Assembly (NCBI GenBank): GCA_021432605.1
Contig: MU271146.1
Span: 744,001-808,000, forward strand
Direction of reading: 5' to 3'
Origin: Coniochaeta sp. PMI_546
Taxonomy: Eukaryota; Ascomycota; Sordariomycetes; Coniochaetales; Coniochaetaceae
DNA: 64,000 nucleotides
In this document: piece after piece, positions 3,414-6,631 of the stretch
Position numbering within the stretch: position 1 is the first letter of the stretch
Layout of the letters: each line of letters begins with the position of its first letter
Translations under genes and position numbers: made by a program
Notes under the pieces: model-generated
What the model saw: the letters and a program-made list of their open reading frames with translations, nothing else
Database searches by the model: none
Told to the model about the DNA's origin: nothing

Positions 3414-5540
3414 TCAGCGCTCAACCATATCAATATCACCATCCCCGACGCTATCAAGCTCCTCCTCAAACGCCATCTGAATATCCATGACCTGCTGCAG
3501 TTGCTCCTGGTCAAGCTTCCTCTTCTTATAGCTCGCCAAGCTCTTGGCAGTCCTGACGACATTCTTGATCTGCCTTCCATTCAGATTCCCCTCGGCCAGC
3601 TTCCGGTACCCAGCCTCGTCAATGTCGATCCCGCCCTCGACCTTCAGCTTGGCCAAGAAGTTCTTCCACACCTTGACCCTGCTGCTGGCAGGCAGCTGCC
3701 CGTACTTGAGCGGCACGTGGATCCGGCTCTTGAACGCGTCGTCGAACGTCGACACGCGGTTGGTCGTCATGAACAGGATGCCCGAGTAGTACTCCAGCGT
3801 GCGCAGGAAGATGGACACCAGGCTGTTGCGCTCCATGTCGTGCAGCGACCGGCGCTCGAGGAACACGTCCGCCTCGTCGATCAGCAGGACGGCCTTCCAC
3901 GTACTGGCCAGGTCCAGGGTGCGGCTCAGCCGCTCGTCGAGCACGGAGCTGTTCGTCCCCAGGTCGCCTGACGAGACGATGTACAGGGGTCGTTTGGAGA
4001 ACTCGGCCACGCACTCCGCGGTCAGGGTCTTGCCTACTCCAGGGGGACCGTGCAGGACGAGGATCAGGCCGCGGCCTTTGCCCTTGACGATGTCGTCGAA
4101 GTGGGAGGCGGAGGAGCCAGAGGTCGCGCGCTGAGTGTGCTCCGAGACGAGGGCTTGGACGAGTTCCTTTTGTTGGGATGGCAGTACCAGTTGCTCGAAA
4201 CACTGCGTGTTCCACTCGATCGGGGAGATCTTCTCCACGAAGAAGTCGAGGAACTTCTTCTCGGTGAAAGAATACCCGCGCACTAGGGGCGAGGCGAGGA
4301 GTGCTTGTTCATCCGTGAGAGGGGTCAGTTGGACATCGGAGGCGTCGTCGGTCATAAGGTCCCAGTCGCTATGCTGCTTGCGCTTGTTACCGGCGGGGGT
4401 AGGGAAGCTCGAGACGTTGAAAGACTGGTTGGGCTCGATGCGGTGGAATGTCTTGCAATCGATCATGACGCGACCGTCGATGTTGTACAGGTTTCCTCGC
4501 TCTCCCATGGCGACGCCCTTGTACTCCCGAAAGTTCTGACCAGCTAGTGCCTCCCAGCGACGGCCGCGTTCGATGAGCATGGTGCGTACGCCCTCTGGAT
4601 CAGGGTGCATGGAGAGCGGCAGGGCGTTGAGGGCCGCAATGGGCTGAGCGCCCGAGAACATCGGAATCATGATCGAGTTATAACGCCTCCCGAAATCGTT
4701 ACCGTCATAGTCGGTGTACTCCAGGCTGAGCTGCAGGCCAGGGCACTGACCGCACTGGTAAGCGTAGTTGGTGAGCTGGAAGACGCACGGCTGGCCACTG
4801 CGAGAACCATAGACGAGCGTCCCAGGCCTGAAGATTGTCCAGAGATGGTCGTAGCTGACAAGTCCCTGCTCACGAAGATTGTCGCCTTCCTTGATGGCGT
4901 CGGCATGGTGCTCTTCGATGAAGCTGAGCAGAATGGGCAGGTGAGCGGCGCCTTCGGAACCCGGCTCCTGGTCGGCAAGAGCAGCCTTCAGCTCGTTACG
5001 ATAGTGGTAGAGACAGTGGGCGGGGAAATCGATGCTAATATTGGATGTGTAGAAGGACTGGCCAGGGTAGCTGCCGATGACATCGGCAAGGATGTCCTTG
5101 AGGGATTCCGAGTTGATCTGCAGCGTGGTGCGGTTGACGTAACGGTTCTGGCTGTCATACTGGCGGGTGACGCAAAGAGCGAACTTCTCATACCAGTTGG
5201 TCGTCTGCTCCGGCACATCCTCATCCTCCTTCGGTTCGGTGATGTAACCGCGGCCTTTCTTTGTCCAGCGCTTCTCCAGATACTTCAACTCCGCCTGCAT
5301 GGGGGCCTTCTCCAGCTCGGCACGCTTTCGCTTGTCTTCCTCGGTGAGACGAGCGGTCATCTCCTGCTGGTCTTCATCGTCAGGGACATCTTCTCCGGTA
5401 GCCTTACGTGCGGTTTGCTTGGTGCGGGCCATAGTGTCGGTGATATGATCGACCTCGTCGTAGTCGCACTCAAAGACGTCGTCGTCTTCGCCTTCGTTAT
5501 AGAGTTCGATATCGTCGTCGTCGTCGTATTGGGGAGTCAT
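3414..5540 (-). CDS. AAA+ ATPase with histone H3-tail-like N terminus
   Basis: Single exon, 708 residues. An acidic leader (1-36) is followed by ARTKQTARKATG at 38-49. That matches histone H3 residues 1-12 except Ser10 to Ala. A charged coil-like stretch follows, then a DUF7025-like middle part (about 110-330) characteristic of fungal AAA ATPases, then the AAA module. Walker A GPPGVGKT is at 498-505, Walker B VLLIDEADVF at 551-560 (Asp555, Glu556), and the pore/sensor region includes FMTTNRVSTFDDAFKSRIH. All ATPase motifs look intact. The first ATG has a pyrimidine at -3, whereas Met37 sits in ACTATGG, a strong context, so two N termini are plausible. Family members are predicted remodelling ATPases; the substrate is unknown. 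A fragment of a related gene lies at 19841-19937. Confidence 0.9.
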   Translation of the reverse strand: MTPQYDDDDDIELYNEGEDDDVFECDYDEVDHITDTMARTKQTARKATGEDVPDDEDQQEMTARLTEEDKRKRAELEKAPMQAELKYLEKRWTKKGRGYITEPKEDEDVPEQTTNWYEKFALCVTRQYDSQNRYVNRTTLQINSESLKDILADVIGSYPGQSFYTSNISIDFPAHCLYHYRNELKAALADQEPGSEGAAHLPILLSFIEEHHADAIKEGDNLREQGLVSYDHLWTIFRPGTLVYGSRSGQPCVFQLTNYAYQCGQCPGLQLSLEYTDYDGNDFGRRYNSIMIPMFSGAQPIAALNALPLSMHPDPEGVRTMLIERGRRWEALAGQNFREYKGVAMGERGNLYNIDGRVMIDCKTFHRIEPNQSFNVSSFPTPAGNKRKQHSDWDLMTDDASDVQLTPLTDEQALLASPLVRGYSFTEKKFLDFFVEKISPIEWNTQCFEQLVLPSQQKELVQALVSEHTQRATSGSSASHFDDIVKGKGRGLILVLHGPPGVGKTLTAECVAEFSKRPLYIVSSGDLGTNSSVLDERLSRTLDLASTWKAVLLIDEADVFLERRSLHDMERNSLVSIFLRTLEYYSGILFMTTNRVSTFDDAFKSRIHVPLKYGQLPASSRVKVWKNFLAKLKVEGGIDIDEAGYRKLAEGNLNGRQIKNVVRTAKSLASYKKRKLDQEQLQQVMDIQMAFEEELDSVGDGDIDMVER

Positions 5541-6067: not shown

Positions 6068-6631
6068 TCATGCTCCTGTGCCTTCTTCCCGCGACTTGTG
6101 GGATAGGCCATCCTGTTTGCTGACCTTGATGCCACGCTCGACCACCTTTTCCAGATACATCAAGTGGTTCTTCTCCATCATGCTCTTGAAAGCGGGCACT
6201 GTCAGGGAATTGCCCGACATCTCCACGCTTAGAGATAATTCGACATTCTTGCCATGAGTGTCTTCCACTTCTCCTGCTGGACTCTTTGACCCGGTGCTGG
6301 ACTGGATCGTCCAAGTTTCACGAAATACCAAGCCGAAGATAGCATGCTTCGTTATAACGACGCCGTCTTTGAAATTGGCGAATTCGATCTTGACTTTGAC
6401 GGTGGTATCGTATAGACCAAATGGCAAGAACGAGACCGCATCTGTGACCTCGTAGATCCTGGACGAGCAGCCCTGGCGGGCGTCAATATCTTTCTCTAGC
6501 TCTTTCCATCCAACAATGATTGGACTGAGATCGAAGATTGTCGTCGGCTCGTGGAGCAGAGCGAGGAGCCTGTCCCGAGACACAGTCTTCGGTATGGAAC
6601 GAACGAGGGTATATCTGTGTATGGATGGCAT
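6068..6631 (-). CDS. DUF7053-like fungal protein
   Basis: Intact 187-residue frame starting MPSIHRYTLVRSIP. The N-terminal pattern (HRYT, a phrase like LLHEPTTIFDLSPIIVG, then a beta-rich half with FLPFGLYDTTVKVKIEF) matches the small fungal family I know as DUF7053, a START/polyketide-cyclase-like fold by inference. The last 30 residues are basic and probably unstructured. There is no signal peptide or membrane segment, so it should be cytosolic. Function is unknown. The start is the first ATG and aligns with the usual beginning of the family. Confidence 0.75.
   Translation of the reverse strand: MPSIHRYTLVRSIPKTVSRDRLLALLHEPTTIFDLSPIIVGWKELEKDIDARQGCSSRIYEVTDAVSFLPFGLYDTTVKVKIEFANFKDGVVITKHAIFGLVFRETWTIQSSTGSKSPAGEVEDTHGKNVELSLSVEMSGNSLTVPAFKSMMEKNHLMYLEKVVERGIKVSKQDGLSHKSREEGTGA

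Follow-up and report, generated by a model that had tools for sequence, protein, structure and literature searches.

Why should a fungal AAA+ ATPase carry, close to its N-terminus, a nearly exact copy of the tail of histone H3? The question is raised by a gene of Coniochaeta sp. PMI_546 (genome size 33.5 Mb) that lies within the window, a term used here for the whole stretch of 64,000 nucleotides that was analysed (contig MU271146.1, positions 744,001 to 808,000). The gene is an open, intronless reading frame on the minus strand (5540..3414) with no internal stop, and it encodes 708 amino acids when read from an upstream ATG and 672 when read from Met37. Residues 38-49 of this frame, ARTKQTARKATG (5429..5394, minus strand), are identical to residues 1-12 of H3 at 11 of 12 positions, which confirms the H3-tail copy described in the initial annotation. 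Within it the core ART-K-QTAR (5406..5429, minus strand) is conserved except for the fast-changing Lys4 column. The numbering 38-49 is correct for the 708-residue frame, but it counts from the upstream ATG, which is probably wrong, as Met37 is the likelier start.

The protein that carries the tail is an intact fungal AAA+ ATPase of the DUF7025 / AAA_lid_13 type. Pfam matches on the minus strand consist of DUF7025 (PF22942, 4602..4883; 93.8 bits against a cut-off of 27), the AAA ATPase core (PF00004, 3717..4058; 61.9 bits) and the fungal AAA+ lid (PF23232, AAA_lid_13, 3447..3689; 36.1 bits). Short motifs located in the same frame and strand include GPPGVGKT (4026-4049) and LLIDEAD (3867-3887), the Walker A and Walker B motifs, together with TTNR (3756-3767) and SRIH (3717-3728). 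No histone family was matched in Pfam at E <= 0.001, so that no histone fold follows the tail, and a single AAA core with no Pfam bromodomain match sets the protein apart from the Yta7/ATAD2 arrangement of two AAA modules plus a bromodomain. The top named relative among the matches listed is a protein of Coniochaeta ligniaria (P0002), 93% identical over 95% of the query. An AlphaFold2 model has a mean pLDDT of 77.6 and a pTM of 0.71, with the DUF7025 part predicted well and the AAA part less so; residues 1-15, counted from Met37, have a pLDDT below 50, and because of this low confidence the tail is likely to be disordered. The adjoining gene (6068-6631, minus strand) encodes a DUF7053 protein (116.9 bits).

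The likeness to H3 is, as was first proposed, beyond chance. From amino acid composition and assumed proteome sizes, the probability that the nine-residue run ARTKQTARK occurs somewhere in 5 million residues is about 4.5e-5; for ARTKQTAR it is 7.5e-4 when any position counts, and 1.5e-6 when only residue 2 counts in a set of 10,000 proteins. Searched with a degenerate DNA pattern for ARTKQTARK, the genome yields two exact matches, at the ATPase site and at the H3 gene (C6:15174), and the reversed-pattern control has none across the 33.5 Mb. When a 26-base H3-tail pattern was allowed up to three mismatches, 19 places were found genome-wide versus 11 for the control; exact matches were again confined to the ATPase and the H3 gene, and 11 of the 17 inexact places were read as peptides. 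The motif is absent from the open frames read at five other DUF7025 loci, the frame at L008 being cut at its 5′ end. One of the inexact places is a second gene at C3:2589550 (minus strand), which starts with MARTKQATPLRRE (MARTKQATP), ahead of a membrane-protein-like, multi-pass-transporter-like frame that presumably resembles SLC35/HUT1.

Of the nine codons, six are not the ones used by the H3 gene of the same genome, all the differences being synonymous, and the stretch is therefore not a fresh DNA copy. A recent copy from the H3 gene of this genome was rejected on these codons and on the upstream 60 bases, which match at 12. A tail-only H3 exon was likewise rejected as the source, as the H3 frame was read as open, with an H3-like sequence up to about residue 70. 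A tree of 71 selected orthologues was rooted on three paralogues from this genome, by a quick method with a very distant outgroup that leaves the basal fork open; its two main branches both contain the motif. The simplest reading of these sequences would be a single ancient capture and later losses, Aureobasidium being one example.

In H3 this sequence is the mature N-terminus, and despite the in-frame ATG upstream the same is probably true of the ATPase. The first description of the locus had recognized the copy and overlooked both its probable N-terminal position, with an ATG directly before the motif, and its distribution across orthologues. A start codon is in a good context for initiation when it has an A at -3 and a G at +4. 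Both are found at Met37 (GACACT-ATG-GC; 5430..5432, minus strand), and the upstream ATG, which opens an acidic in-frame extension of 36 codons (5433..5540, minus strand), has a T at -3 and thus a weak context. The extension is weakly coding-like, with a codon-usage score of 0.03 per codon versus 0.29 in the gene body; among 2000 random synonymous versions, 38 score as high. Met occupies the Met37 column in 118 of the 132 rows of an alignment limited to sequences of at least 600 amino acids (the window protein and 131 relatives), and in 11 of the 118, one being the window protein, other residues precede it. Among the 80 listed motif-bearing orthologues, 72 have gene models that begin at the motif Met. 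Initiator methionine is removed when alanine is the second residue; since Ala follows Met37, a chain started there would expose A-R-T-K as in H3. P0001 and P0004, which are near relatives, likewise contain an in-frame Met further upstream, with extensions that contain acidic stretches. Because the upstream ATG occurs here and in these two, the tail is perhaps buried in some or all of the protein of this genus, and a long isoform is possible. In a control that scored later methionines there was a single score of 8, presumably from P0037, whose own motif is at residue 166. In P0123 (Elasticomyces elasticus) the H3-like ARTLQTARKSTGGKAPRKQL is internal, preceded by Arg and with Leu in place of Lys4; it is either an exception to the N-terminal placement or a gene-model error.

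The orthologue set consists of 163 different proteins drawn from the best 120 of 605, 641 and 968 matches, and 127 of those listed are N-complete. Exact ARTKQTAR follows Met in 39 of the 127, and a match of at least 7/8 is found in 63, at least 6/8 in 77 and at least 5/8 in 80. A match below 5/8 is found in 47, among them P0031 and P0102 (MQTAR...), whose models seem to start too late. Scrambling reached at least 5/9 in 5 of 20,400 shuffles. The longer ARTKQTARK is exact in 16 of the 80 listed motif-bearing orthologues. Three species with the motif belong to three classes: Coniochaeta ligniaria (Sordariomycetes), Septoria linicola (Dothideomycetes) and Exophiala xenobiotica (Eurotiomycetes). 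The likeness extends furthest in P0084 (Cercospora kikuchii) and P0092, which match H3 1-23 at 21 positions, P0098 (Septoria linicola), at 20, and P0079, at 19; P0092 and P0079 are placed among the Dothideomycete rows of the tree, and P0098 bears the database name 'Putative histone H3/CENP-A, AAA+ ATPase'. Conservation in near relatives, which the initial annotation had named as a test, is divided: P0001 has the full motif, position 4 is Met in P0003, and P0002 reads MARTVQRARGTG, where Lys4, Thr6 and Lys9 are gone. As these three residues are absent from a protein that is 93% identical, they can evidently be lost quickly. The Colletotrichum proteins P0017, P0018, P0020 and P0021 have ARTRQTAP (Lys4 to Arg, Arg8 to Pro), and the close P0014 keeps ARTKQTAR. 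Two entries filed under Quercus suber (P0118 and P0130) sit among fungal rows and, judging from name and placement, are probably fungal contamination of the cork oak assembly.

Which residues have been kept was estimated by counting parsimony changes per sequence in each column, on a tree that was inferred with the N-terminus left out. The mean is 0.19 for columns 38-45, 0.35 for columns 46-60, 0.18 for columns 61-80 and 0.14 for columns 81-708, and columns 38-45 are slower than columns 46-53 (Mann-Whitney p 0.001, from rounded values). The expectation that the motif is kept better than the residues beside it is borne out by columns 46-60; columns 61-80, further on, are kept as well as the motif. 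Arg2 (0.05), Arg8 (0.12), Ala1 (0.16), Thr3 and Gln5 (0.17 each) and Ala7 (0.20) fall between the 39th and 68th percentile of columns 81-708, Thr6 (0.27) is at the 81st, and the four that follow Arg8 reach the 91st to 99th. Lys4 (0.37; 92nd percentile) and Lys9 (0.40; 96th) change as fast as the residues that follow. Counts in the 80 listed motif-bearing orthologues run in parallel: A1 is kept in 76, R2 in 79, T3 in 76, Q5 in 77, T6 in 67, A7 in 76 and R8 in 71, and Lys4 in 57, K9 in 30, S10 in 42, T11 in 28 and G12 in 30. On these rates and counts the conserved part is ART-x-QTAR. The change of Ser10 to Ala in the window protein, to which a lost phospho-switch had been attached, is not a family trait, given that position 10 is Ser in 42 and Ala in 11 of the 80.

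The explanation towards which we lean is that an old captured H3 tail at the N-terminus of the ATPase may act as a free docking peptide for a protein that binds H3 tails. Translation would start mainly at Met37 in this species and the initiator Met would be removed, leaving A-R-T-K-Q-T-A-R exposed; the flexible peptide would dock in a protein that grips the first eight residues of H3 and is tolerant at Lys4. Docking could bring the AAA+ motor to the complex of its partner, or the tail could compete with H3 for that partner. Proteins that bind the N-terminal tail hold the part of H3 that is kept here, and candidate partners would be an LSD1/KDM1-type demethylase, a PHD finger or the WDR5/Swd3 subunit of COMPASS. 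The genome encodes an LSD1-like gene with SWIRM and amine-oxidase domains, which shows only that one such candidate exists. The docking of the ATPase tail is supported by the frequency and placement of the motif in the listed orthologues, by its presence in both tree branches and in three classes, by the pattern of kept residues, and by precedents described for N-terminal H3 mimics, namely PAF15 with UHRF1 (PMC8034647) and SNAG with LSD1 (PMC12612597). It is weakened by the losses in P0002, by the 47 of 127 listed proteins below 5/8 and by at least 30 changes of the exact string, and further by the acidic residues directly after the tail and the upstream ATG here, in P0001 and in P0004.

A more specific proposal, which we consider a lesser possibility, is that in a lineage of Pezizomycotina the free tail of these ATPases is a pseudo-substrate in an H3K4 pocket (LSD1/KDM1 or COMPASS), where it would recruit the motor or inhibit the enzyme. 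Replacement of Lys4 by Leu, Met, Val or Ala would make the tail an oncohistone-like inhibitor in some species, and the choice of start codon may bury or expose it. The variation at position 4 is counted in favour of the docking reading. Where ART-x-Q-x-AR is intact (63 rows), this position holds Lys 46 times, Arg 4 times and an aliphatic residue (A, L, V, M) 9 times; the rest of the 17 non-Lys cells are T, T, S and Q, and D, E or N never occurs. When only Met, Arg2 and Arg8 are required (85 rows), an aliphatic residue fills 17 of 32 non-Lys cells and D, E or N fills one. Across all rows, 23 other variable Lys columns have a mean aliphatic replacement share of 0.16, and 2 of the 23 exceed position 4. 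The aliphatic excess is treated as a lead because the comparison was made after the data had been seen. Under a midpoint root Lys is reconstructed as ancestral at position 4.

Two further explanations appear unlikely to us, and about equally so. The tail might be a pseudo-substrate that enters the AAA+ pore of its own or a neighbouring subunit and gates the ATPase, the real substrate being perhaps histone H3. AAA pore loops seldom require a strict sequence of eight residues, which counts against this, as do the missing bromodomain and the single AAA core of the window protein; moreover, among the matches listed (60 of 146 in one search and 18 of 18 in another) the nearest solved sequences, matched in the AAA part, are of the Rix7, p97, fidgetin, katanin, mei-1 and spastin types. 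In its favour, the tail is N-terminal and of low AlphaFold2 confidence, and for Yta7 the AAA chamber is described as taking in the N-tail of H3, which was modelled as entering by its N-terminus (PMC9898759). Alternatively, an H3 tail that was fused once in an ancestor might have decayed ever since and do little or nothing today. The spread of match lengths counts for this: of the 80 listed motif-bearing orthologues, 4 match H3 1-23 at 19-21 positions, 17 at 13 or more and 63 at 12 or fewer. Losses in P0002 (partial) and Aureobasidium fit such a decay, as does the history of exact ARTKQTAR, which was gained or lost at least 30 times over 118 rows and is absent at the midpoint root. Erosion alone, however, should not leave the same residues intact in each of three classes, and the contrast between A1, R2, T3, Q5, A7 and R8, with Thr6 somewhat faster, and the four residues that follow speaks against it.

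Methylation of Lys4, Lys9 or both, by COMPASS or DIM-5 and with PHD or HP1 proteins as readers, was the function stressed at first, and we now regard it as improbable. No other residues among the first nine are kept as poorly as these two lysines, and Lys9 has become Arg in 30 of the 80 listed motif-bearing orthologues. DIM-5 is described as needing H3 R8-G12 in vitro (PMC3248561); R8 is present in 71 of the 80, and K9, S10, T11 and G12 in 28-42 each, so a shared role resembling that of H3K9 is unlikely and the ATPases do not read as DIM-5 substrates. The window protein itself keeps R8, K9, T11 and G12 with S10 changed, and it and the 16 listed orthologues with exact ARTKQTARK are what speaks for methylation. 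Methyl-lysine signalling is, on this pattern of conservation, not the shared function of the tails, and methyl mimicry could occur in species that retain the lysines. That the tail is a basic targeting signal alone, for nuclear import or mitochondria, with its H3 likeness due to descent or chance, is very improbable: Arg2 and Arg8 do change least among the first nine residues, but the basic stretch spans about 10 residues and turns acidic at once (net charge per 10 residues +4, then -5), T3, Q5, T6 and A7 would not be expected to be kept, and the long matches of P0084, P0092, P0098 and P0079 would go unexplained.

Among the matches listed from the openly licensed PMC literature there was no report of an H3-tail N-terminus on fungal AAA ATPases. 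If the docking reading is right, ATPases with a free H3-like end may interact with proteins whose usual ligand is the histone tail. An uncharacterised AAA+ motor in which the tail is kept and the lysines are often lost would separate recognition of the tail from lysine methylation, and the natural tail variants provide a set for finding the partner that binds it. On the practical side, fungal samples may give signals from these ATPases when antibodies or automated annotation are directed at the H3 tail; the database name of P0098 already calls one member a histone.

To our knowledge, known histone mimics are short, internal or approximate. SNAG domains are N-terminal, lie on zinc-finger transcription factors, have no Lys at position 4 and only resemble H3. 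That of Snail1 and GFI1 is described as a short H3-tail mimic that recruits LSD1 (PMC12612597); the ATPases share with it a short H3-tail-like peptide, and differ in that the match is exact over 8-9 residues and the host is an AAA+ protein. The N-terminal VRTK of PAF15, which is bound by the PHD finger of UHRF1 (PMC8034647), is likewise an H3-like motif at the very N-terminus, but it comprises four residues with one substitution, whereas eight or more are identical in 39 of the 127 listed ATPases. EZHIP, a non-histone protein with a K27M-like peptide in its C-terminal part that mimics H3K27 (PMC6513997), resembles those Lys4-substituted ATPases in which the target lysine has become aliphatic; inhibition has been shown for EZHIP, and the ATPase tail is known as a sequence. 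Other H3-like mimics, such as the automethylation sites of G9a/GLP (PMC9768651) and the C-terminus of influenza NS1 (PMC12937675), are internal or C-terminal, whereas the ATPases appear to reproduce the free N-terminus. The Yta7/ATAD2/Abo1 chaperones are also AAA+ motors connected with the H3 tail, but Yta7 binds the tail and is described with a bromodomain and two AAA modules (PMC9898759), whereas the window ATPase carries the tail and has one AAA core with DUF7025 and AAA_lid_13. As a kind, then, the ATPase tail belongs with the N-terminal H3 mimics, and what is new about it is its exact length, its AAA+ host, its occurrence in three classes and how often its lysines have been lost.
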